64,000 nucleotides of DNA from Pegea sp. RAD2-039 (Eukaryota; Chordata; Thaliacea; Salpida; Salpidae), in NCBI GenBank assembly GCA_034620365.1, contig JAQGEQ010000071.1, forward strand, positions 5,580,001 to 5,644,000, in the 5' to 3' direction. Both the position numbers and the translations under genes were made by a program. The notes below the pieces were generated by a model, which was given only the letters and a program-made list of their open reading frames with translations, was not told where the DNA came from and made no database searches. Shown here piece by piece: positions 28,932-47,334 of this stretch (its first letter is position 1; each line of letters starts with the position of its first letter).

Positions 28932-29950
28932 TATAAAATAATACTGAGATAACTAGAAAATAAAGAATAATAAAGTTATTCAAATACATAATTTGTATTT
29001 AAAACATTTTCATCTAATAAGTAATGTAATAATCTTTAATGTTCAAAATAATTGAAAAATTTACAAATAATTACAAGGATATTAATTTAACTTAAATATT
29101 TGATCTTTAAATATAAAATCAAATATTCTGATAGTAAATTGAAAATTCATTTTTATAAAGCTAGATGCAAATAATTAATTATTATTAACATTAACATTGA
29201 AAATAAAACTTAATTCATTTAAGACCAATAATAATATAAATAATCAACCTTATTTAGTTATCATATTAACTATTTTTTAGGTTCAAATAAATAAAAAAGT
29301 TAATCTAGATATAAAAAATATTGAAAACAAAATTATGAAAGTTTTAAGCAAAACAGTAAATATAAATTTAGTATTTAGAATATTTCTAATATTTTGTTGT
29401 ATCAATGTTGATATTGGCAAATAATCTTAAAACAGAAATATAAATTGTAAAATATAAAAAAAAATTCTTTAATATTCGACATTCAAAAGATCTTCATTTT
29501 CAAAAAATTCTAATTTCAAATTTGTTTTATGAAAAACAGCCATTACTATCTAAATTTAAAAGAATACTTTAATTTACACTTCATTTTAAGAAAATTTAAA
29601 ATTAAAGTAATTTAGGGTAAATTCTTTCAAGTATGAATTAAAACTTAAATAATTATATATTAATTACTTGATTCAAAATTGTGAGGCAATATCTTTCATT
29701 GCCTTTCAGTATACAAAAAATATGATTTTTTAAATTGCTTTATACAGCTGAAACCAGCGATTACTGACTTATCAAATATCTAGACGGCATTATTGCAATT
29801 CGTTATGTTCTGTTGACCTCCTACTTTATTTATGACTCTCACAGTACAATCAATTTTTTATACACTAAATTTACAACCTTATTTGCTTTGCATAGAATTA
29901 AAAAATTTGTACTGAGCTTGTCAAAGTACTTCTTCAAAGAGATCATTAAT

Positions 29951-30020
29951 ATTTATTCATTTATTTCAATAAATGTGAAGGAGGATACCTGAAAAGAGCA
30001 CCTCTCGCTAACACACATAT
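29951..30020 (+). repeat. Dispersed ~65-100 bp repeat, copy 2
   Basis: It reads AATAAATGTGAAGGAGGA, then TACCTGAAAAGAGCACCTCT, then CGCTAACACACAT, with the ATTTATTT run before it. It is the shortest and most diverged of the three copies; the hairpin arm seen in copy 1 is weakened. Confidence 0.85.
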
Positions 30021-30559
30021 ATTAGACTTTTTTTATAGGACATATAAAAAAGAATCTATAAGAGAACAAACAGCTTTTTTTCAACCAAAAGCCGGACTTC
30101 ATTCATCTTGTGAAGCTATTTGTCTGCTACACAGTCGTGACTATAGCGCCTAATGACATTTCTTTTATTACCTTAAAACTTTAGTGTAAACTGAAATACT
30201 TTCTTCGTGTGTTTGTTTTCGAGATTAGAATATTGCAAAAAGCATTAAAACATCTACAGGAAGATTATTTTAAGGAATAAAACATTAAATTTCACTTTTT
30301 TTATGAAAACCTATTTATTTGATTTAACAAATTTGTTATTTTTATCAACAACTTACGACGATTATAATATCAAGTTTCTTTAAACATTTTATGGGCTTAG
30401 TGATATTAAATAAAATATATTAACCAAATAAAATTTATTCGAGAAAAAAGTTGAATTTTGACTTGCAAATAAACTGATTAAAGAGACTAAGATGGAATTT
30501 AAAAGAAAATAATCTTTAAGCTTTTTGCTGGCATATCAAATTACATAGAATCAAGTTAG

Positions 30560-31220: not shown

Positions 31221-31580
31221 TTACTTTTTCATACTAGGATTCTTCAGTACAAGAATCACAGAATCGCCTCTCAAAAACATCTTTTGAATAAAACGGTCTC
31301 GATTCTTTGGTGGCTTCTTGGTTTCACCCTTCTTCTTACGCTGGGATTCCACCCACAGCATGGTCACATCCTCCAAAACCATGTTGCAATGTCGGTCAAA
31401 AGCTTTGACACGAGCCAAGATCTTGCGGTTATTTCTACAATTAATCAAAACTTGGTTGTTGTTCTTCACTGAATCGGTGAGAACAGAGAGCGGGCCTGTT
31501 TGGAACTCAGCTTTTTCCAGAGCCTCAAGCTCTTCATAAGTCATATCAGATTTGGAACGTCCTTGAACAGTTGTTGCCAT
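31221..31580 (-). CDS. SNRPD2: Small nuclear ribonucleoprotein Sm D2 (SNRPD2)
   Basis: SmD2 is one of the seven Sm-ring proteins of the U1, U2, U4, U5, U11 and U12 snRNPs. It is a single exon of 119 residues, against 118 in human. Sm motif 1 is [20 protein letters not shown] followed by [14 protein letters not shown]. Sm motif 2 is [12 protein letters not shown]. The N-terminus has the SmD2 extension [20 protein letters not shown] and VLTDSVKNN. The Lys-rich loop between the motifs ([18 protein letters not shown]) is typical of SmD2. All Sm positions are intact. It is on the same strand as RSRC1 and SNRNP48 but 2.3 kb upstream. Confidence 0.98.
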
Positions 31581-33191
31581 TTTAAAGTCTACTTAAAAAT
31601 ATCTATAAAAATAAATTTTAAATTGTTAAAAATATAAATTGAAAGTAGTTTAAAGAAAATCATAAATAAAAAGTTTTTTAATAATTCATGAAATAAAAAA
31701 ATTACAAAAACTTATTAAATGCTAAGACCATAAAAAATTATAAAAATTTCATAAAATATTTATCAAAATATAATATTTTTATGTAAAAAGAAATATTTTT
31801 ATTTTATAATTTGTTGAATTATTTTATTCAACAGATGACAATTTTATACAGCTTTTATAGTAAAAACATGACTACAGAAAGATAAGTCTAAAGTTTGGCT
31901 AATTCTTTAGTTCAATTAATATATAAAAAATAGGAGACACTGCAGAGGCATAAGTAAATATCATAAAACAAAAATACAAAAAATCTAGTTACAATAATTA
32001 GTTGAGATAAAATTAAATCATACTAAAAAATTCCTTATAACTTTACATAAGACTTAGAAAACATCTAAATATATATAATCTAACTAATTAAACTTATTCA
32101 ACAAAATAAAAGCCACAATTTAAATACCTAGGTATATATAAACACAAAATGTTCACAAGTTCATAAAAAAAAGTTTATAAATTATTTTTAAGGGTTTAAT
32201 TATTTAGAGGTTTTATTATCTTAAAGGTTTACAAATCTATAAAATTTAAAAGAGGCAATTTAAAGCAATTTTTGAAGGTAAAAAACAGAAAATTATATCA
32301 ATCATTCTAAAACATGACAAATTCATATAATACAAAGTAAAGCAAATTTAATTGGATAAATTATTTATTATTATTATTAAAAAAATGTAAAACTTGACAA
32401 CTTTTTATATAAATGACAAAAGAAAAAATGAAATCAGTTTTTTATATACAAAAGTTTGCAAAAAAAAGTCATCAAGTTAATAATACAGCATTTGAAAAAC
32501 TTCAGATAAAAATAAAGTTGAAATAACAAAATAGGAAAACAAAATTAAAAAATAAATGTATCAACGAAATACAAATGATAGTTTTGGAAATATACACAAA
32601 AAATATTTTTATTACGTTTAAAATTAGTAGTTATATCTTAACATTTACGAAATGCTATAAATGACGGTATCGATTGAAATCATTTATTCACAATGTCTAA
32701 ATAAGAAACAATAAACGCGAAACAAGATCCATTAACTAAAGAAAGAAATAAGAGAAGGAACCAAGCGCTAAAAAAATCTAAATTGAAAGTGGAGAAAAAA
32801 ACTTATTGTGTAGTTGCAAAATAAAATTCAGCCAAAATGTTCACTAAAATTGAAAAACATTTGTAATTTAAAAAAAGCTTAAAATTCAATACTTTTATAA
32901 TAATTTTATAAGATTTCTGAAACTTAACTGAAGCACTTAAGACTTCAGAATTTTAGAGAGTAATTATAAAATTAGCAAAGTTCGAAAATAGACTTAAGTA
33001 TTTTTTAATGGACTAAAACTTTGACTTAAAATTTTTTTTTTTGGTAATTCTATCAATGAGTAAAATATGAAAATACTGCCAACCCTAAGAACGTCTGGAA
33101 TTTTTTTCAAATGTGGTAACATCACTATAATTTTTCAAAGTTATGGACAAAATTAAAAGATTTTAATACCTTGAAGAATTCTTTAGGTATT

Positions 33192-33295
33192 TCATTTATT
33201 TATTTATTTATTTATTACAATAAATGTGAAGGAGGGTGCCTAAAGAGAGCACCTCTCGCTAACACACATTCTCACAAATTAGATCTATTTGACGT
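33192..33295 (+). repeat. Dispersed ~65-100 bp repeat, copy 3
   Basis: This is the longest copy. After a (TTTA)n run it reads AATAAATGTGAAGGAGGG, then TGCCTAAAGAGAGCACCTCT, then CGCTAACACACATTCTCACA and AATTAGATCTATTTGACG. Identity with copy 1 continues to about 33282, which sets a minimum length near 90 bp. Confidence 0.85.
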
Positions 33296-33844
33296 ATTTA
33301 TGGTAGTAGATTATCTATCAGGTATGAATAAAAAAAAAGCGGTGAGATAGACATAAAAATTAAATAGTAACTACATTATTAATAAATATTATTGATTTTT
33401 AATAATTGTTGTGATCATTGAAACTGGTAAGTTAATAATTAATTAAACAAAGTAAGTAGAGTATAAATAATAAATAAATTATTTTGTTATCATTATTTCA
33501 TACTTTAAAAATATGTTATCGATAGTTTTAAAAAAAGTTAATGAAAAAATTATTGGACTTTTGCGAAATTAGGGATAATTATTCTAAAGTGATTTCACGT
33601 ATATTGCTTCTAACAGAGATACAAGAAACAGGTTAATTTTTCAAGTGAAACATGCTAAATTAAAAATAGTACATTGGTAAACGGCTGTGCATACAAAAAT
33701 AATATAAAAAATAAAGGAAATAAAGTTTTTAAATTAATTTTGTGCTACCAGGTGATGTAGAATACCAGCGAAGATTGGCTATACAGAAAATTCGTGACCA
33801 CCTTTAAGCAAACTCGTGACTTCAAGATGTCATCTTCCGCCACC

Positions 33845-34477: not shown

Positions 34478-37400
34478 TTAAAGGTCTACAGAATGTTTCG
34501 AGAAAACGCGATTTTGTTGCAGATTGATACTTGCTACATCTACAGAGGGTCTTGGTGAATCATAATAAGCTGTAGGGAGTGAAATATTACTTGTGGATGA
34601 AATGAAACGATTATCCGAAGCAACTCGGTTCATATTTGGATTTAATCTTGTATCAGATGCAAACGTTTGAATATCAGGATCAGAAGGCCGCGGAGACATA
34701 TAGTAAGATGTTGGTTGTTGTAAGAGATCAAGTGAAGCTTTTCGCATTCTTGTTGGCTTGGAAGGTTTTGGGTTATTCATAAGAAGATTTGGTTGAGATG
34801 ACATATTGGGTTTCTTTTTGTTCTGCTTGTTAATAATAGCATATTCAACATTTGCTTTTCCACTTGCTTCATCACAAACTGCATCATATGAAGCTGATAA
34901 ACTGTTTGGTGGTTTTAAGCAAGAATGATCTTTTGGTTTTCGAGGAAGGAGTGAGACATCATCAACAGTTGAATAACCAATAGGAGTATTTTTTTGGTTA
35001 TCATCTTTTTCGTCTGGGACTTGACTGTAATTAATATTTTCAGCTCTTGGAATTGGACAAGGTGCTCTATCAGATTGACCAATTAAAGCTCCTCTACTAA
35101 AAGGGACTTCGTGAAACTGAAACTTTGATCTCGTAGACTCCAATCCAACATAATCATCGCGATCATATTGATGAGTTGTCTGAAAAAAACAAAAATGTTT
35201 TTATAAATTAAAATTACTTAAATAATAGAATAATAATTTAGATTTCAAAAGTAACTTGGAGCTTTACAGATTGACTTTGGTTTCTAGATCAATGATTCTA
35301 AACCAATGAAGCTAGCTTTCTGTAAAAATATTCTCTATAATCTTCTACCTCACTCTAACTTCTAAATTATTACAGTTTCTTTGTAATATTCAATTGCTAA
35401 AAAGGACAACACAAGAATTAGTTGTGAAATGATTGTTTTAAGAAGTTTATATATTTATATATATATATTTATATATATATATTTATATATATTTTAGGGG
35501 AATTACTTCGCATATAAATTAACTTCAGTTTTGTGAACTAACCTCAATAGAGGTAAGATCATTCTGATCGCATATAACATCTACTCTTTTTGAAGTACTA
35601 TTCACTTTCAGTGTTGGTTGCCTCGTATTAACTGATTCAATGCTAACGTAAGTCATATTGTTGATTGAATGTAATCCATCACCGATTTGAAGAACTCTTG
35701 AGTTTAGAACCAACTGCTAATATTGGGGATTTTGATATACAGATCTTATAGCCGCAATTTAATTACTAAGCAGCAGCCTTACTACAAAATTAGGCTTTCA
35801 ATCAAAATTTACTGAAATCACAAGAAGTATTCTTACGTTTGTTGGTGCTTGACTTTCTTGTTTGCTCTTAGAACGGCGACGCCGAACAACAAATATTCCA
35901 ACGACAATAACACAGAGCAAAACTCCCCCCAGAATAAAGGGCACGTATATAGGAAAACCAGATGAGTCATCTTTTAATTCTGTTCGATCTAAAATACATT
36001 TAAAGTATCAATTTTAATTGTTTATGTTTACATGTTAATAATTATTTACATATCTAGGGAATATATTTTATCTAATTTCAAAACTTAATTTTTATCTTTA
36101 ACTTAATAAAAGCATTACAAATCCATAATCTAACCATCATCCACATCGGGGATGATAATCTTTTCATCATTCACATCAGGAACCATCTTTCCGTCTTTTT
36201 TATCATGCTGAGTTTGGTAGACAAGTTGAAAGCCCACGTTTTGAAATGTGATATTTACTGAATCAATACTACTTGCAAATGCAAACTGCTGTAATGGTAA
36301 GACTTTTGATGTTTCACAAATAGTTTGAATAGTTTCTTCCTGAGCATCTGTAAAAATATCAAAAGTTATTTTGTTTTAATTCGCTTATAGCCTGATAACT
36401 ACTACCTTGTGATATCTTTTGTATTGTAATGAATGAACTAGAACAAATTGAATTTCTAAAAGTAATTTGTTGAAGCTTTAATTTCAACGAGTGCTCAGCG
36501 TAAGAATTCTTTCTAACTCTTATCCATTGAATAAACTTTTTTGGCTTTATTACTTTTTGGGTTGAAGTTCCTTTGGCAAAAACGTTGCCAGCAATTTCTG
36601 TATATTGTTTTTGAAGATTAGACAAAAAAAGCTAAAATCAATGAATCAAAATATTGCTGAAATACTTAATGTTGAGCTCAGTTACTAAAGTATCATTTTT
36701 ATAATTCTATATTTTTTAAATCAAATATTTTTATAAGTTTAGTTTTTCATTAAACGCTTATTGTTACTTTGAAAATTATCATTTTTTTAATCTTAATTAA
36801 GAATCTTGTTTTCTTGTAACTTACTTGGAGTTATTAAAACAAATATTTCAGGATTAATATCTAAATCACACAATGTCACTGTTATAGCATTGCTTGAAGC
36901 AAGTGGATAGTAGACAAATCTTCCCTGACAGAATGGTATAATCTCTCCAGATATTTCCACAAATATTCTTGGTGGATTTCTGGTGAATCAACTTCTAGAT
37001 CATATACTAATTGCTACCATATTTCTTTATATATTCAGCTTTTATTAAAAATTTGAACAAACGTAGTCATTATAAAAGATGTAAGTTAGAAGCGGAAAAA
37101 CTTTTTAAAGTTATTAAAAGTTGACAGTTTCCAAATATAGCTACAAAAAAATACTTATTTAGTTTTAAACTGTTTCAAAAATTTATTCAAAAATTGCTTA
37201 TGACATTTCAAAAACCACTAGTCACTTTAAATTTCATTTATAAATATTTCAAGCAAGACAAAATTCGTAACAAACATATCAATAATTAATACTAGAAGTT
37301 TGTGTAAGTTTTTAATGGCTATTAAATTTACTTTAATTGAGTTTTGCAAAGTTTTTAGTTTGTATTTATTGTTATTAGCAAGCAAAAATTCTTTAGTGAA

Positions 37401-37855
37401 TAAGTTGTATGAATAATTAGGAGGCTAGCTCTAACAATAACAAGTATTTGTAAATTTTTCAATTACTCATTTCGTAAAGTTTTTATTCTGTTTTATCATA
37501 ACATATATTGAAAAGTATAAAATGAATTAGTAGTTAATTTTTCGGAAATATTTTGAAAAAATGCGTTATATAAGTTATAGAATATCTTAGTATTGAGCAA
37601 AATACAAAAATTGACTAACTTTTTTTCATTAGTACAGTCTTCATTAGATATTTTAACCGGGGAATAAAATTGAAAAGTTAAGTTCCCTCCAAATGGTTCT
37701 CTGAAAGACCATATCGACTTTTGTCGTGCTTTTAAATTATATTTTGTTGGAACTTTTGTATCTTCTTCAAATCTTTGGATATTGCCTGAGCATGGAGTCA
37801 AGGACGAATGGGTCGGTAGAGCAAGTAAGAATAACAAATAAAACTGACTTAACAT
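34478..37855 (-). CDS. Receptor A: signal peptide, two CUB-like domains, TM helix, tyrosine-rich tail
   Basis: Seven exons give about 620 residues. Exon 1 (37855-37620): signal peptide MLSQFYLLFLLALPTHSS, then the first half of CUB-like domain 1. Exon 2 (about 36985-36833): PRIFVEISGEIIPFCQGRF, its second half; four Cys in all. Exons 3 and 4: CUB-like domain 2 with Cys in SICSSSF and TICETSK, and the CUB ending SVNITFQNVGFQLVYQ. Exon 5: TM segment VPFILGGVLLCVIVVGIFVV then RRRRSKSK. Exon 6 (about 35716-35540): GDGLHSINNMTYVSIESVNT. Exon 7 (about 35180-34478): a 230-residue tail with DDYVGL, INYSQV, IGYSTV, VEYAII, SYYMSPRPSDPD and AYYDSPRPSVD. Gene B repeats most of it, and gene C is a more distant copy. 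The receptor type is clear; ligand and function are unknown. Vertebrate CDCP1 and DCBLD2 are analogues (CUB outside, phosphotyrosine docking inside), not orthologues. Confidence 0.85.
35446..35495. repeat. TA-rich simple repeat in an intron of receptor A
   Basis: A run of (TA)n broken by TTTATA units, located between the last and the preceding coding exon of receptor A. It looks like ordinary microsatellite DNA. Confidence 0.85.
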
Positions 37856-38655
37856 TTTGAGAATACTTTTCTAAAAAAATAGAAAACAATTGGTTATTTC
37901 AAAAAAAATCATTATAAAACTTAAAGATAGTTTTTATTTATCATTTGTTTTAGAATAGACAATTTAGATTTAACTCTGAATCACCGGTAAAGCAAAGCAC
38001 ATAAAATAGCTTCATAAAAACAAAAATGACCTTATCATTTAGAAATATCATAGAAAGCTCAGCTTAGCTTACAATCTAAATTATAATTAAGATAAAAATT
38101 TGATTAAAATTTACTTTTATAAATTATTTTAATTTCCTTACAGCAAAAACAGCAAAGTTTTTGAAAACAAAAACATAATTTAATTTATTGAAAAAATTTT
38201 GAAATGTTTATTAAACAAGTTTCATCTTTCTAGAACAACTTCAACAATCTAATAAAAAAAAAATTTTAAGGTTTGACAAAAAATGTATAAGCTAACATGA
38301 GACCTAAGATAAAAGTAAACTTATAATACAATTCTTTCTTGAAAAAGGTAAATAGAATTAGTCTTAAATGTCAAAGAATTTATACATTTAAAAAACTAAT
38401 CACCCGGAAGTAGACACAAACAACGTCAACATGATTACAAGTTTTTGATATTTATAAAAACAGTTGTAAAATTGTTTTTCTTATAATCTCAAATCATAAT
38501 TTTTGACGAAGTTAATGAGAAAAGTAAGTTAAACGTCAACAGCTACAATGACAATTAATTTATCTAGATTCTGGCGTTCTACATGTCTATTTAAACACAT
38601 ACAAATTTCGGTAAAATTAAATATTGTTTGATAATCAAAATATTTATCAGAATTG
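37856..38655. other. Spacer between receptors A and B, with a possible remnant of the B tail
   Basis: AT-rich, about 800 bp. Because receptor B ends early compared with A, the left-hand sequence may include decayed remains of the missing tail, but I cannot align it by eye. It should also contain the promoter of receptor A. Confidence 0.5.
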
Positions 38656-41600
38656 TTATTCCATATCAGGATCGAAAGGCCGTGGAGACATATAGTAAGA
38701 TGTTGGCTGTTGTAAGAGATCAAGTGAAGCTTTTTGCATCGTTGTTGACGTGGAAGGTTTTGGGTCATTCATAAGAAGGTTTGGTTGAGATGATATATTG
38801 GGTTTCTTATTGTTCTGTATTTTAATACTAGCATATTCAACATTTGCTTGTCCACTTGCTTCATCACAAACTGGATCATATGAAGCTGATAAACTGTTTG
38901 GTGGTTTTAAGCAAGAATGATCTTTTGGTTTTCGAGGAAGGAGTAAGACATCATCAACAGTTGAATAACCAACAGGAGTATTTTTTTGGTTATCATCTTT
39001 TTCGTCTGGGACTTGACTGTAGTTAATATTTTCAGGTCTTGGAATTGGGCAAGGAGCTCTATCAGATTGACCAATTAAAGCTCCTCTACTAAAAGGAACT
39101 TCGTGAAACTGAAACTTTGATCTCTTAGCTTCCAATCCAACATAATCATCCCGATCATATTGATGAGTTATCTGAAAAATAATTTTTTGAATTAAGAAGT
39201 TTCAAGCGTAGAGATAATTGAATAAATTGAATTTAAATAAGAATCAAATTGTTTTTTTTTTAAATTCTTACGTTTGTTGTTTCATTTTGTTTATTGTGTC
39301 TAGAACACCGACGTCGAAGAACAAGTATGATGATGACAACAACACCAAGAAAAACTCCTCCTAATATATAGGCTAGATATGGAGGTATCTGATTCGGTTG
39401 GTCATGATTTCGAGAAAGCGTTTTGTCAAGATCTAAATTCATTTCAAAGAACCTTTTTGTAATTTTTAAACTACATTTATATGATTATGCTTATATGTTG
39501 ACATCGTTTTATTTAATTTTATTTTATTTGAAAGTTCAAACAAGCTTCTTAATTACAATCAAAGCATAAAAAGTCTATTTAAATTTGCATGTTCAAGATT
39601 TTTGCTGAGTTTTGTTCACGTTACATAGAAAATATATTATAACTATGTTTATGTTTAAATATTTCTACTGTGATTTGAACCGAATAAATAAAATAAACTT
39701 CAAGGTATACTCATAACTTTATCTCCTTATAAGATCAAATATTTTCAAAAGATTTTAAACTTAGATATCAGATACCAAAAAATCACAAACCTTTCTGCTA
39801 GAACCTAACTATCAATTACCCTGATAAGTTTTCGTCAAAAAATATTATTTAAATTTCTTAAATATAAAATATTTGTAATAAACATATTTTCTTTAAAATT
39901 TCATTCATTACTTCTATCAAATAATCTTATATTTAAATGAGCTAAACGTTTTCAATACTTATAAGCAAGAAGAACTATACTCAGAAAATTTAGTATCTAT
40001 ATATCTTTAAACTTTGTTTTTAAATCACCAGAATTTCTTCCATCTAATGATGTGTTCTTCTTTTGGTAGACAAGTTGAAAGCCTACGTTTTGAAATGTGA
40101 TATTTACTGAATCAATACTACTTGCAAATGTAAACTGCTGTAATGGTAAGACTTTTGATGTTTCACAAATAGTTTGAATAGTTTCTTCCTGAGCATCTGT
40201 AAAAATATCAAAAGTTATTTTGTTTTAATTCGCTTGTAGCCTGATAACAATTACCTTGTGATATCTTTTGTATTGTAATGAATGAATTAGAACAAATTGA
40301 ATTATTGAAAGTAATTTCTTGAAGCTTTACTTTCAAAGATTGCTCATCAGAAGAAGCCTTTCTAACTGTTATCCATTGAATAAACTTTTTTGGCTTTATT
40401 ACTTTTTGGTTTAGGGTTTCTTCAGCAAAAAGACTGCCAGCTATTTCTGTATATTGTTTTTGAAGATTAACAAATAAAAATTCCAAAATATGATCAACTC
40501 AAAGATGATGATTAAGAATTTTTTCGTTTAAAGTCGGATGTAATCTAAGATTTTTCAATTTTTTAGGTAACAAATAATCGGTATAACTATAAGTCAATTG
40601 ACATTAAAATAATATTGTCATGCTCACTAGAAAAAATTTGATATAAATTTTTGTAAATGAATATAAAAGATGAAAATCAGTAAATAAAATAATAAATTTA
40701 AATTAATATTTTTTTACTTGAAGATATTTTCACTGAAAACTTGGTTTTCCGGTCAATATTACAATATTTAATTTTAATCACGTCATTCGAAACTAAGGGT
40801 AACCTCATTAGATTTTCTTTGCAATATGAAATGTATGATCCATAAATCCAAATATAAATTCTTGGGTCTTCTCTATGAATAAGAGTGTTTCAATTGTAAA
40901 GAAAAATTATAAACGATTAAACTTTCATTATAATACTTCCCAAACACTTTATTTCGGCTTTTTAAAGTTATCCAAATTATAATTTTATGGTAACTTATAT
41001 TTTTGGTATTAAATTAAAGAAAAGACTTTTTTTTATTTGAAACCCAATTTTTGTTGTCTGAGCTTCATAAGCCGAAGCAGTAGATGCGAAGAAGTTGGCA
41101 GCCATACTTTCTTACTGCGCATGCGCTTTGATTATTATGGAGAGCAGCGTGCGCTGAAATGTCCCCTGTCTTTAAACCTTTTATTAAGTGACGAGGCCCA
41201 GTGACATCCTTTAATTAACCGAGTGATAGTGATTAGATTAAGTCTGATCACGATTCTTTCAGCTGAGTTTCATATACTGAAGAAGTAGATGAAAAAAGTT
41301 AATTAACATATCTACTTCCTGTCTGCGCATGCGCTTTGATAATAGTGGACAGCAGCGTGCGCTGAACTACCCCTACTTTTAAGTCCAATGTTGGGTGATT
41401 CAGCTTAGTGACCTAGGACAGTGACATTGAGGTCAATAAGTTGTAGATTTTTGTCTGGGTTCACTCTCATACCCTTGCTTCTTTTGAAGTGTCACAAATT
41501 AGTGGCTGATACGTAAATGTCAATAAATAATCACAAGTAAAGTAATTCTATATCTTCTACTTCTCCCAAAGTAACCACAAACTAGTGACCCATATTTGGG

Positions 41601-41943
41601 AAGATACTTTCAGCGCGTATTTTTAAGGATTTGTAGGATTCGAACACAAGCTTACAATAGATTAGCAGCTTTGATAAACTAGTAAAAGGAAGTAAACTAA
41701 CCGTTTTATATCGGAGCACATTTTTTTCGTAATATTTGGAAAAGATTGGAATTGAAACGTTAAATTACCATCTTTTGGTGCGATGAATGCCATAATAACA
41801 TTGCCTCCAGCTCCTAGTTGAGAAGTTACAAAATTTTGAGGTTTAATTTCATAACTATCTAATCTTTGAGCCCCTGGACATCGGGTTGAGACCGGATAGA
41901 CTGGTTGAGTAAAAAGAAATAGCAACAAAATTGTCTTCAGCAT
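38656..41943 (-). CDS. Receptor B: paralogue of A with a shortened tail
   Basis: Exon 1 begins at 41943 with signal peptide MLKTILLLFLFTQPVYPVS; an ATG 60 bp upstream is in frame but would bury the signal peptide, so I chose the second. CUB-like domain 1: GNLTFQFQSFPNITKKMC then EDPRIYIWIYGSYISYCK. Exons 3 and 4 form CUB-like domain 2, ending SVNITFQNVGFQLVYQ, almost identical to A. TM segment: YLAYILGGVFLGVVVIIILV then LRRRCSRHNK, clearly different from A. The last exon (about 39172-38656) is about 90 per cent identical to A in protein: DDYVGL, INYSQV, VGYSTV, VEYASI, SYYMSPRPFDPDM. It then stops, so the second motif (YYDSPRPS) and about 60 residues are missing. The exon equivalent to A exon 6 (MTYVSI) is not found: TM and tail exons are only about 97 bp apart. 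Intron 1 carries SINE copies. It may be a functional short form or a gene beginning to decay. Confidence 0.8.
41058..41212 (-). mobile_element. SINE, partial copy (body only)
   Basis: It has the same body as the copy at 41268-41690: GCGCATGCGCTTTGAT, then GGAGAGCAGCGTGCGCTGAA. No tRNA-like head is visible. It sits in the same orientation directly left of the fuller copy, inside intron 1 of receptor B. Confidence 0.65.
41268..41690 (-). mobile_element. tRNA-derived SINE in intron 1 of receptor B
   Basis: On the minus strand the head near 41690-41628 carries a canonical B box, GTTCGAATCC, in a tRNA-like context. The body matches the element at 33845-34194 (GACAGTGACAT, then GCAGCGTGC). The head abuts the donor side of exon 1 of receptor B. 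Ends are approximate. Confidence 0.65.
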
Positions 41944-43286
41944 ATTATAACTTCGAATAGTTAACCCCCAAGTTTTCAATTTAAGAAATAACTGGAAATA
42001 CAAACTTTTTATTTCTAAAATGAATGTTATAAAACTTAAACGATTATAAAAACATAAAAAATAACAAACAATACTGTCTAATACTTTTCTATTTAACCTA
42101 AAACATTCTTGAATGATTTATATATTTGCAAATTTTAAAGCGGAAGTTAAAATCTTTCGTCATGACTACTACGTTTCAACACTTCATCATTTTAATACAT
42201 GATTAATCAAACCAATGAATATATGTCATTTTATTACAACAAACTAATTGTTTAAATAACAAAGCTCTTATTACTACAAAAATGATTTTGGCTTAGAGAT
42301 AATTTATCATTTCTCATAAAGAATATTATTTACCATTTCAATTTAATTTTTAAGATTAAAAGTCTGTTGTTAAAGATATAACCCTTAAAATAATCGATTA
42401 ATCATTAAAATATTTTCAGGAGTTTTAATGAACTAATTTGATTGTTTAGGTTGTTAAACTGTAATATATATAAACATCTATTTATTAAAAATTATAGAAA
42501 ATAACTTCAACAACTTAAGCTTTATAGAAAGTTGAAACAAATTTATTATCAACGATTTATTCAGGCTTTATCAAAGTAACAATTTTATTCTTTTAGTATA
42601 GGATGTTTTCTGAAAGTACCAATTCAGAAATTGATGAATTTACTTAAACATTTGGTGGATTCTTTTATGTTTAATCTTAAATCATTAAATGAAGCATCTT
42701 AATAAAGTTTCCAGTAATAAATGATTGAATTAGTTTCTAAATGATTGGTTACATATCATACAATAAACTAGTTGTCATCAGTTTGAATATATTTTATAAA
42801 ATTTTTATTTTTTGATTAATTTTAATATTTCACATAATATCTCATATTATTATCTAATTGTACAAACTTTTTAGAAAACTTTAAACAAGTTTTTACAGCC
42901 TGCTAAAGTATTGAAAAGAATCACAGAGAGGCTATCAATTTATTTTTATTTTGTTTTTTATTGAAAATATTTACAAAAAGGTAGCATAGATAAAAGTATT
43001 TTATACTTTAACCCTTTTCTAAGGAAAACCTAGAAGCATATATTTCTTGAAGAAACAGATAACAACAAAATTTAAATGGTTCAAATTTTCAAAACGTCAT
43101 CACGACCTACTTTAATACAAAATACTTTTTAAAAATGATTAAGAACAAAGAATTATTCATCAATATGATGATAGTGATGAAAGAGCCACTGATATAAAAT
43201 GTTATCGACTATAAAGTAATCCTGGCAAATCATAATATCAATTGATACATTGAATACTAAAAATAGATTAATAATTAAAAATGAAT
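41944..43286. other. Spacer between receptors B and C
   Basis: AT-rich DNA, 1.3 kb, containing the presumed promoter of receptor B and the 3' UTR of receptor C. No repeat or coding segment recognised. Confidence 0.55.
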
Positions 43287-46200
43287 TTAAATATTATTCG
43301 AATTTTGCCTAAAAAACGGTTTTTGCTGGTTTAAAGTCGAGACGGTTCCATCTAACGATGGCCTTGGTGAATCATAATAACCAGTCGAATTTGATTGAAG
43401 AGAAGTGCTTAAAGAAGGTATGTGATGTTCTATAGCAAGTCGACTAAGGCTTGGATTTATAACTGGCTGGATATCAGGATCAGAAGGTCGATGAGACACG
43501 TAGTAAGATGGTTGACAAATATTCAAAGACTGTTTTCGATGAGTAGGTAATTCACTACAGCTACCTTGATCTTCCAAAAGATCTGGAAGGGAGGAACTAG
43601 GGGCCCTTAAGCTCATTTTTAGCTTATTGGTACTTGTATACCCGTCAAGCTTAATTTGATGGTTCCCTGAAACTGTAGATCTTGAAAGATTAGCTGCAGT
43701 GTCCCTAGATGGGAAGTATTTTCCGCTGCTCCCTCTTTCGCTATCCTTATAAGAACTTAATCGAAAAGAAGTGAGATCTTCGATAGTAGAATAGGGATTA
43801 CAATCATCGTATGCATCTTCTTGAAATGGAACAACATCATAATTTGATCGTTGATCCAAATGTGAAGTTTTAGGTGTTGGGTAAGGTGGGCGATCAGATA
43901 GTTTTTGAGTGGAACATTGTGAAAGTTGTTTGAAACAAACACGGTTTAGGACATCGCGATCTTCTTGTCCCTGCCTCTGCAAAGCAATATCAATTTTAAA
44001 TTATTTAAATAGTTTGACTTCATTACAAATTGCAAACTTAAATTTCTACTAATCATCTTGGTAAAAACCCGTATTATGCTTGATTCTACAAATTTGTATC
44101 AAACTTTTTTAAACTCTACATAAAAATATGAACCTTGACCAACAAAGTAGGAACTCAGAAAAGGGGACAGTTAGATATAAATTCGTTTAAACAGTTAACA
44201 AATGGTGAAAGGGAAAATCTGATAAAAACTTTTATTTTAATTCTATTCAGTTCCTGAATTTATGAACACAGTTTAAAAAAACTGATATTTTATATCATTA
44301 AAGTAAACACTTTTTTAGCAAGAGATAATTTAGTTCAATCTAAATGGTTTTTCGTTAGCAATTATAGATTTTTAGCTTATTGCATGCTTTGAGATTAACT
44401 AAACAACGATAAAAACGGCAAAGATAATAATTGTGCATAATAGTTCAAAAGTAAGTATCAAACTTTTATGAACAACCTTGAGTTAGTTAAAGTAAAAACT
44501 AAGCTCAGCAAATAACAATTAATTAACAGCTTTAAAACTTATTCTGTTGTCTAGGCTGAGGAGTTACAAAGACTAACTCTATAGAGGTATGTTCAATTGA
44601 AAAGGTTTGTACCTCTGTTGGAGGTGGACAATGAAAATTCACTTTTTCAAGTCTTGGTTGTCTTGTATTAACTGATTGAATGCTAACGTAAGTCATGTTG
44701 TTGATAGAATGTAATCCATCACCGATTTGAAGGATTCTTGTGTTTGGAACCAACTGCTAATATCAGTTTTTCAAACCATTTTATATAAGCTTGAATGGAA
44801 TATCGAACTTGGAATTTTTACCGATTATTTAATGCTATTTTACAACAGCAAATTTTTAGATAACTTTATTTACTTTTGTAGAGTCTCCTTGACTTGCTCT
44901 GTTCTTTCTTCGGTTACGACGTCGATGAACAACAAATGCAATGATGGCAATAAGAATACAAGCTAGAACTCCTCCTGCTCCATATGGAATATATTCTTTC
45001 CAATCTACTTGCTTTTTATCATTCGACATTTTTGGATTTATTTCCAAGAGAGTTTCTGTAACTTTAGGAATGAGTGTTAGTTTGATTTAATAAGAAGTTC
45101 TATTGCCATTTTTAACTAATGAACCTTCTTTAAGATTATTATCGTCTGTTTTAGTCTTGTTGATAAGTACTGTCTTTGTGATATTTGGTTTTGTTCTGTA
45201 TGTAAACTGAAATCCAACATTTTTAAAAGATACATTGATTGATTCACAGTTATTTTTAAACTGATAAGTTTGGAAAAAGTAATTTTCCATACCACATAGG
45301 CTTGAAACAAACTCGTATTCATAATTTCCTGCAAATAATAAAAATAGATTCTGAAACAAGTTTCATGGTTTTTCAGAGTCATTCTGTTTGATGATTGCTT
45401 AATTGCTAGTAAATAAAAATTCCCGTTCGTGAAACGTTGTTAAGTTAGGAAAAGTCTACTTTAAGAATAATAAACAAATAAAGTTCGTGATTTGAAGGAA
45501 TATATATGCTAAAGAATCTTTTTGAAATTTATTTTATATGTGATATTAATTTTATTTCAGCCCTATACCAATATATAGAAACATTTGCTTCATATTAGTG
45601 CAATTTGAAAAGGAAATCAGTTTGATAAATTATTAACAACTCATTATGAAAATAATTTCTGATAAATAAGATCTATAAATACCTACATTTACATAAGTTT
45701 CAAACGAAATGGAATTTTCTCATTTAATTTATTTTGGTTTTAAAATACGTTTCATTAAACTATAGATAACCTTTGAATTCAAATTTTAGCTTCTACAAAT
45801 TTAGAAGCAAATTCTAATAGTAATAATTATTATTAGTCTTTTATTATAAATGTGTTGTAAGAGTATGACGTTATTAAGAGGACATGACGGTTCTTGTAAC
45901 TACCTCATAAATCCAAATTTCATTATAATCTTTCAGAATAACAATTTAAAGTTGCAAAATAATTGAAAAAATTATCTTTAAATTTTGATTAAAAATAAGA
46001 TGAAATTACACAAGCGTTTTACTTTTAATTTTGGATTCACAAGTAAATTAGTCATTAAATAAAACTTTAATTTAAATTAGTAATATATATATTACAAATA
46101 TAAGTTAAACTAATTTATAATTTCAGATGGTATTTAAGAAGCTTATAGACATGAGTATATTTCTAAGTCTTTTTATAAAATTAAGTAAAGCTTAATTTGC

Positions 46201-47334
46201 GTAAATACATGATTATAATACGGAAAATTACTCGGCCGCATAAGTAAAAGCTGAACTGGGAACGCGTCTTGATTGTGATAAAACAATTGAATTAATCAAA
46301 CTCAAAAGTAAATAATAAATTTCATTTTTAAGTAGACTTTCGAAAGCTAAGTGTAAATTTAACTTTTTTACAAGTAAACTTTCTTCTAAGTGTTTTATAT
46401 TTACATCATTCACCTTGTATAAATTTTTCAATCTTGATAAATGATTTTTTACAATCGGTTGAAGTTAGATTAATTTTGGTAAGGTTTAATTCCAAAATAT
46501 CAAAAGGGTTTTGATGTTGATTGTCAATATTAATCCATTCATAGGTAGGTTTTGGTTCGACAACAATTTGAGTTTTGTTTCTTTGTGCAAATACGTGGCC
46601 AGCCATTTCTAGATAAAATTCTTTCATTATTTTGTGAAGAATTCTATGCAGCTAACAAAATCATTACTTAAAGTTAATCTGGAAACTTTGTTTTCATGAA
46701 TATGTACAAAATTGTAAGGCTTAGAACAGAAAAAATTCAGACTTAAAAAGAGTTAAAAGCTGAAATTAAATATCTTGAAATTGTTGAATCAATAAAACCA
46801 AACTTTTTGTATAAATCAGCCTTTGAGGTAAACTTACTGGCAACAATTTTGATTTTAAAGCTAAGGTTAATACTGCAGTATTTCAAGGTAATGTTTGCAG
46901 CCGAAACTAGTGGATAATCGATTAATTTTCCTTGACAAAATGGGAAATATTCTCCTTGAACACGTAAAAATATTCTTGGTGTTTCTCTATAAACAGAAGC
47001 TACATTTGCATCAACATAATTAAAAAATTTACTTGCACTAATAACTTAATTTGTTTTTCAAAATTAATATTTAAAAGTGTCTATACCTTCTTATTTTCTT
47101 GCATCTTTTCATAGAAATGCGAGTTTTTTCATAAAATTGAAAAGTTAAATAACCACCAGGAGTTGTTTTAAACGTCTGGATTCCGCTTCGATGGTTGCCT
47201 AGCAGCAATTCATCTTCTTGGTCACTTTTTAGAAAGTAATCTTTGTGTTTATATGATCCAGGACAATTAAAAGGACCAGACTCAGCAAGTAAAAAAAATA
47301 AAAATAAAAAGATGAACCTTTTTATTTCAAACAT
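43287..47334 (-). CDS. Receptor C: distant paralogue of A and B
   Basis: Seven exons give about 610 residues. Signal peptide: MFEIKRFIFLFLFFLLAESG. CUB-like domain 1: GYLTFQFYEKTRISMKRC then ETPRIFLRVQGEYFPFCQG. CUB-like domain 2: exon 3 EMAGHVFAQRNKTQIVVEPK with DCKKSFIKIEKF; after a 1.1 kb intron, exon 4 has SSLCGMENYFFQTYQF and ESINVSFKNVGFQFTYRT. TM: IPYGAGGVLACILIAIIAFV then VHRRRNRRKNR. Exon 6 (about 44759-44580) GDGLHSINNMTYVSIQSVNT is almost identical to A exon 6. The tail exon (about 43979-43287) has SNYDVV, NPYSTI, SYYVSHRPSDPDIQ and GYYDSPRPSLDG at the same relative places as in A, while sequence between the motifs is unrelated in detail. Conservation of only the tyrosine motifs between C and A suggests they are the functional parts. 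C is the oldest branch of the trio. Confidence 0.85.

Follow-up and report, generated by a model that had tools for sequence, protein, structure and literature searches.

How three neighbouring receptor genes of a salp came to be almost alike in some exons and saturated with silent differences in others, and what such receptors may do, is the question raised by a stretch of 64,000 nucleotides of Pegea sp. RAD2-039 (assembly GCA_034620365.1, contig JAQGEQ010000071.1, positions 5,580,001 to 5,644,000; the whole stretch is called the window below, and positions are counted from its first letter). The minus strand of the window holds the genes, which we call A (47334-43287), B (41943-38656) and C (37855-34478); the outer ends of the set fall exactly at 34478 and 47334. 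The mosaic history of these genes is the firmest new result of the analysis. With moderate confidence, we read the genes as a small lineage-restricted receptor family, known from this locus alone, that arose by old duplication and gene conversion and that would dock SH2 proteins through tyrosines in its tails.

An initial annotation of the window had described three genes on one strand with one architecture. The layout, a transmembrane (TM) segment, the basic residues next to it and a long tail were recovered in all three, whereas B departs from the plan: it has no exon 6, and its tail ends ~62 residues early. In the full plan, exon 1 encodes a hydrophobic start and half of ectodomain module 1, exon 2 its other half, exons 3-4 module 2, exon 5 the TM segment with a basic stop-transfer sequence, exon 6 a short tail piece containing MTYVSI, and exon 7 the long tail. 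The models comprise 7 exons and 604 residues for A, 6 exons and 477 residues for B, and 7 exons and 606 residues for C. Each of the three proteins has one TM segment at a 19-residue hydropathy cut-off; the putative signal peptide is a hydrophobic N-terminus judged by eye and lies below that cut-off.

Junction phases are 2,1,1,1,0,0 in A and C and the same minus exon 6 in B, and the phase-2 junction stands right ahead of PRIF or PRIY in all three genes, in agreement with the phase-matched exon plan that had been proposed. The junctions were hand-chosen among GT and AG sites on the minus strand and each was then checked by script, and the splice forms are predicted; thus, GT-AG ends and matching phases are partly fitting criteria. 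The open, homologous frames across the three genes are independent of these criteria. An exon 3 extended upstream of AAATxGCTGGC was rejected, since the frame stays open there but the junction phases no longer fit; with the AG acceptor that the genes share, the phase is 1 in all three. Intron 1 of gene B contains a 54-bp direct repeat (41313-41366 and 41105-41158, minus strand, 87% identical).

Divergence between the genes is distributed as a mosaic. Between B and C, homogenised tracts 1 and 2 (Table 1) cover module 2 and the tail exon, and the third and last BLASTN match at E<=0.001 is the TM exon (102 columns, 75%). The 58-nt intron within tract 1 aligns between the two genes without a gap. 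Tract 3 joins A and C and is accompanied by extra short matches of 44, 32 and 18 bases; the last tail exons of this pair are otherwise saturated, with open frames (214 aligned codons, nonsynonymous divergence (Ka) 0.70, synonymous divergence (Ks) 1.42). For B and C, Ks was 2.21 (saturated) in module 1, 0.195 in module 2 (exons 3 and 4), 0.73 in the TM exon and 0.113 in the tail, and the module 1 values for A-B and A-C were 1.40 and 1.39, respectively. Expressed as counts, synonymous differences between B and C were 48/68 in module 1 versus 24/183 in module 2 plus tail (Fisher P ~5e-18, from rounded counts).

Such unequal silent divergence inside one gene pair argues for gene conversion, or a chimeric duplication, rather than selection. 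The limits of the tracts lie near exon edges, presumably because the introns of the old duplicates had already diverged, leaving only exons able to pair. Tract 2 ends 4 nt before the stop codon of gene B, the stop that removes the last ~62 tail residues. These comparisons point to exon-sized gene conversion that came after an old tandem duplication; non-allelic crossing-over or chimeric duplication would be equivalent alternatives here. The initial annotation had proposed tandem duplication of one receptor family, which is borne out, with exon-scale conversion as a later layer.

To count the copies of the family, four six-frame queries were run at E<=10 against the whole genome of 105.7 Mb (387 contigs). 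All matches lay inside the cluster: 6 for module 2 of C, 3 for the last tail exon of C, 11 for the ectodomain of A and 6 for the TM segment and tail of A. Thus, no fourth copy was found by this search, which distant relatives could escape. When each protein was compared with the window by tblastn (E<=1), the homologous ectodomain exons of the other genes were recovered (weakest E 0.009) and no match fell outside the cluster. No named family with this plan came out of sequence searches of Pfam-A and PDB, as had been supposed from the letters, and the same searches gave no match to a single-copy housekeeping receptor. Further, the titles and abstract openings of the top-ranked papers in open-licence PMC do not describe such a family.

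The ectodomain had been described as two CUB-like domains. In profile-profile comparison, this description held in part for module 2, which scored above shuffles with two of three CUB profiles, and was not convincingly borne out for module 1. The CUB profile was home-made, with 10 CUB domains taken from solved chains and 6 from this genome. The alignment of module 2 with it spans 80 columns and brings the tryptophan, the GFxxY end and two cysteines into register; the score of 22.5 was reached by none of 300 column shuffles (maximum 17.0) and none of 400 block shuffles (maximum 21.7). With an extended profile that included six further degenerate CUBs of the genome, the score was 21.4, reached by 0/200 shuffles. 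The probability for CUB given by the HH comparison was at most 14.3%. As single sequences, the modules 2 scored 14.1-17.0 versus a decoy maximum of 16.2 (39 open reading frames, likewise single sequences), and genuine degenerate CUBs of this genome scored 64 and 67 and a half-domain 26. Plain HMMER with the home-made profile gave 4.6 bits for B, 2.4 for C and 1.2 for A, all in module 2.

The CUB domain has a two-disulfide cysteine pattern. In module 2, two invariant cysteines aligned with the second CUB pair, and module 1 has four conserved cysteines with a spacing unlike that of CUB. Module 1 was not convincingly above shuffles with any CUB profile (28/300, 34/100, 80/400, 12/200 and 21/200 shuffles reached its score), and no similarity was seen between the two modules. 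The nematode-type CUB_2 family (PF02408) had no match, and its control gave no match anywhere either. At E<=10, the Pfam-A output for the three proteins consisted of TM segments and weak noise below cut-off, with no immunoglobulin (Ig), sushi, discoidin, LCCL or other ectodomain match above the cut-offs. The domains are intron-split, and the half-domain of exon 3, folded alone, gave an uninformative model (mean predicted local distance difference test score 52.7, no secondary structure). On the profile comparisons, module 2 is probably a very divergent CUB-like module, and we regard its CUB reading as suggestive.

The genome itself has many CUB domains: a genome-wide search with PF00431 found 114 stretches at E<=0.001 among the 150 scored out of 174 candidates, none of them in the window. 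At C21:2525000-2552000, numerous half-exons of degenerate CUB type that carry a CCD motif form an array, in one part of which near-identical units recur at a spacing of ~8 kb. A second dense cluster of CUB stretches occupies both strands of C42:502065-538653.

Tyrosine motifs in the tails were counted and compared with 5000 shuffles of each tail, in nine tests in all. The tail of C, with 11 tyrosines, contains six YxxI/L/V sites (shuffle mean 1.96, P 0.004), three of which resemble the immunoreceptor tyrosine-based inhibitory motif (ITIM; mean 0.61, P 0.019), and two YxxP sites (mean 0.92, P 0.24). In B, the counts were 5 (P 0.002), 3 (P 0.001) and 1 (P 0.60), respectively. The ITIM pattern [IVLS]xYxx[ILV] thus occurs once in A and three times each in B and C, and exceeds shuffles in B and C only; the inhibitory or adaptor-type motifs named in the initial annotation are accordingly upheld for C and B and not for A. 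Between the A and C tails, tyrosine is the best-kept residue, at 14/22 letters versus 41% overall, a small number given without a test; serine is a close second (44/75), and one of the kept tyrosines sits in tract 3. By eye, these two tails have the pieces YST[VI][DE]D, SYYxSxRPSDPDIQ and YYDSPRPS in common.

Candidate signalling partners are encoded in the same genome, in which 33 SH2 stretches were found at E<=0.001. At C34:231500-235500, the single region examined, two SH2 exons and a tyrosine-phosphatase exon set follow in order on one strand, which is the layout of SHP phosphatases. The likeness of this gene to SHP2 presumably extends beyond domain order.

In the account that we favour, A, B and C would be single-pass type I receptors with two ectodomain modules, of which the membrane-proximal one would be a divergent CUB-like sandwich. 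Ligand binding or clustering may lead a Src-type kinase to phosphorylate tail tyrosines. Tandem-SH2 proteins, for example the SHP-type phosphatase encoded in this genome, would then bind at the YxxI/L/V sites, of which A has one that is ITIM-like and B and C have three each, and CRK-type adaptors could bind at the YxxP sites. By analogy with known receptors, the most likely function is that SH2 proteins are recruited to the tail when a ligand binds. In this account, the three genes go back to an old tandem duplication. Gene conversion later copied the tail and module 2 between B and C, and between A and C most of exon 6, while module 1, which presumably binds the ligand, kept a divergence like that among three old genes.

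The passages cited here from earlier work describe several receptors that resemble this scheme. CDCP1 is phosphorylated by Src-family kinases, and its phosphorylated YxxI/L tyrosines bind SHP2 directly; like A, B and C, it is a transmembrane receptor, named for its CUB domains, with a YxxI/L pair in the tail that binds SHP2 (PMC4395315). Unlike CDCP1, A, B and C have two ectodomain modules, long tails and three tandem genes with conversion. No CDCP1 chain was among the results of the PDB profile searches, in which a direct sequence comparison with CDCP1 was not included. DCBLD1 and DCBLD2 share with the salp genes a transmembrane design and a tyrosine-bearing tail, beside a CUB domain of their own, and their YxxP sites bind CRK/CRKL in a manner dependent on Src-family kinases (PMC6029619). 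In contrast, A, B and C are without discoidin or LCCL domains by Pfam and have 2, 1 and 2 YxxP sites, respectively, versus 7-8 in DCBLD1/2.

In Botryllus, uncle fester is a duplication of fester exons 6-11 joined to an unrelated N-terminal half, with equivalent architecture, and the tails of the Botryllus FcoR proteins carry ITIM or YxxI/L/V motifs (PMC12065747). These genes are like A, B and C in being clustered receptors, in the distinct front on a shared back (uncle fester) and in ITIM-type tails (FcoR); they differ in their Ig and sushi ectodomains, dozens of loci and known polymorphism. The receptor genes of the Alr family of Hydractinia, a family of 41, are clustered like A, B and C and take part in recognition (PMC11999971); their products use Ig-like folds, whereas A, B and C are three genes without an Ig match. 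Further, gene conversion homogenises the ruminant CEACAM1 paralogues while the ligand-binding domain of CEACAM32 escapes (PMC7042247); these proteins belong to the Ig superfamily, and the likeness to A, B and C lies in a ligand domain that escapes conversion. The resemblance to uncle fester and CEACAM32 is one of behaviour, not of family.

Several results weigh against the receptor account favoured above. The tail of A is not enriched in YxxI/L/V (3 versus a shuffle mean of 1.98, P 0.32) or ITIM-like sites (1 versus 0.62, P 0.48), and YxxP is above chance in none of the three tails (A, 2 versus 1.00, P 0.26). Since the B tail shares the sequence of C, the motif statistics rest on one tail. Pfam-A at E<=10 gave no CUB match (PF00431) in any of the three proteins, with filters that drop most weak matches; PDB profile searches with the whole ectodomain, module 1 and module 2 (E<=10) returned no CUB chain in 3/3 cases; and with the profile of the 10 solved CUB domains alone, module 2 scored 14.5, a value reached by 22/200 shuffles. 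The B-C Ka/Ks ratio in module 2, 0.67, suggests weak constraint at most, and the TM exon of A-B is the sole exon in which Ka exceeds Ks (0.75 versus 0.67).

The closest competitor, to which we give slightly less than an even chance, is a lineage-specific receptor of the CDCP1 or DCBLD kind with an ordinary role in development or adhesion, expanded by chance, with conversion as a neutral by-product of the tandem layout. The family is small, Ks exceeded Ka in all but one of 19 exon comparisons (several saturated, and two with Ks beyond the formula), and both known receptors use YxxI/L or YxxP docking that depends on Src-family kinases (PMC4395315, PMC6029619). However, Pfam and PDB searches found no sequence homology to either, and module 1 escaped homogenisation though its exons adjoin converted ones. 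It is somewhat unlikely that A and C alone function and that B is a copy in decay or a chimera, in which an older front is joined to a C-like tail and module 2. Such decay would fit the missing exon 6 and tail end and the distance of the first polyadenylation-type signal after the stop codon, 444 nt in B versus 65 in C and 171 in A. Nevertheless, the frame of B is open over 477 residues with intact splice sites, and its tail has a Ka of 0.055 versus a Ks of 0.113 with C.

An allorecognition or immune locus of paired receptors, polymorphic and expressed together, in which the variable outer module senses self or microbes and the tails inhibit or activate, appears unlikely to us. The variable distal module on a homogenised proximal module and tail, the ITIM-like tail sites and the parallels with uncle fester and FcoR in the Botryllus passages (PMC12065747) agree with it; yet the genome search yielded three genes and no further copy, Pfam gave no Ig or sushi match, and decay would explain equally well that B is without exon 6 and the end of the tail. 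Uniform old duplication without conversion, with module 2 and the tail held by strong purifying selection, is very improbable. The conserved blocks nearly coincide with exons, as this explanation would have it, but their synonymous sites have diverged by 11-20% (Ks) and those of module 1 are saturated, and the intron in tract 1 aligns without gaps. A uniformly slow module 2 and tail was therefore rejected as contradicted by Ks.

Table 1. Predicted exons of genes A, B and C and the homogenised tracts, in window positions.
Feature	Position	Strand	Basis
Gene A exon 1: hydrophobic N-terminus, module 1 first half	47087..47334	-	ATG, GT donor; tblastn homologues in B, C
Gene A exon 2: module 1 second half, starts just before PRIF	46838..46986	-	AG acceptor, phase 2
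Gene A exon 3: module 2 first half (CUB-like)	46414..46608	-	phase 1; profile comparison
Gene A exon 4: module 2 second half and linker	45125..45328	-	phase 1
Gene A exon 5: stalk, TM helix, basic stop-transfer	44874..45061	-	hydropathy, model
Gene A exon 6: tail segment with MTYVSI	44613..44753	-	model; 127-bp tract common with C
Gene A exon 7: long tail, YDVV, YSTI, YYVSHRPS, YYDSPRPS, stop	43287..43976	-	model, motif list
Gene B exon 1	41702..41943	-	model
Gene B exon 2	40718..40872	-	model
Gene B exon 3	40255..40446	-	model
Gene B exon 4	40029..40196	-	model
Gene B exon 5: TM	39272..39432	-	model, hydropathy
Gene B last exon: shortened tail, without final YYDSPRPS	38656..39171	-	model; 100 nt from exon 5
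Gene C exon 1	37620..37855	-	model
Gene C exon 2	36825..36979	-	model
Gene C exon 3	36406..36597	-	model
Gene C exon 4	36135..36347	-	model
Gene C exon 5: TM	35837..35988	-	model, hydropathy
Gene C exon 6: MTYVSI	35543..35713	-	model
Gene C exon 7: long tail, INYSQV, IGYSTV, VEYAII, YYMSPRPS, YYDSPRPS	34478..35179	-	model, motif list
Homogenised tract 1: exon 3, 58-nt intron, exon 4 to module 2 end	B 40062..40479 / C 36213..36630	-	92.4% DNA identity, 419 columns
Homogenised tract 2: tail exon from 3' splice site	B 38663..39179 / C 34671..35187	-	94.0% identity, 517 columns
Homogenised tract 3: most of exon 6	A 44637..44763 / C 35600..35723	-	89.8% DNA identity, 127 columns

The surroundings of the cluster contain exons that match LSM (an Sm-type protein, 31221-31592), bZIP_2, Gtr1/RagA and CLU_N. 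The guanine-cytosine content of the window ranges from 20 to 44% in 2-kb blocks, and Rfam gave no match in the window. By its introns and its many CUB and SH2 domains, the sequence is probably nuclear DNA of an animal. COX1 was not found in the assembly, and an arthropod cuticle family had no match there, with a control that gave none either. A repeat with a frame of approximately IYLFIYxNKCEGGxLKRAPLANTH is present in two copies on the plus strand (29950-30153 and 33120-33350) and is perhaps a fragment of a transposable element.

For the biology of the family, the mosaic could have a wider meaning. We think it improbable that this phosphotyrosine receptor family on a non-Ig ectodomain, in which conversion would keep the tail and proximal module common and the outer module distinct, is a locus for recognition of self and non-self or of pathogens that arose independently of Ig-based systems. 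If the receptors do act in recognition, ITIM-like signalling would be joined to a non-Ig ectodomain and to gene conversion that respects modules, and this would bear on the number of times that paired recognition receptors have been reinvented in animals. Whether or not it has such a role, the locus offers a small and clean example of mosaic evolution exon by exon, with three tracts in two gene pairs within 13 kb.

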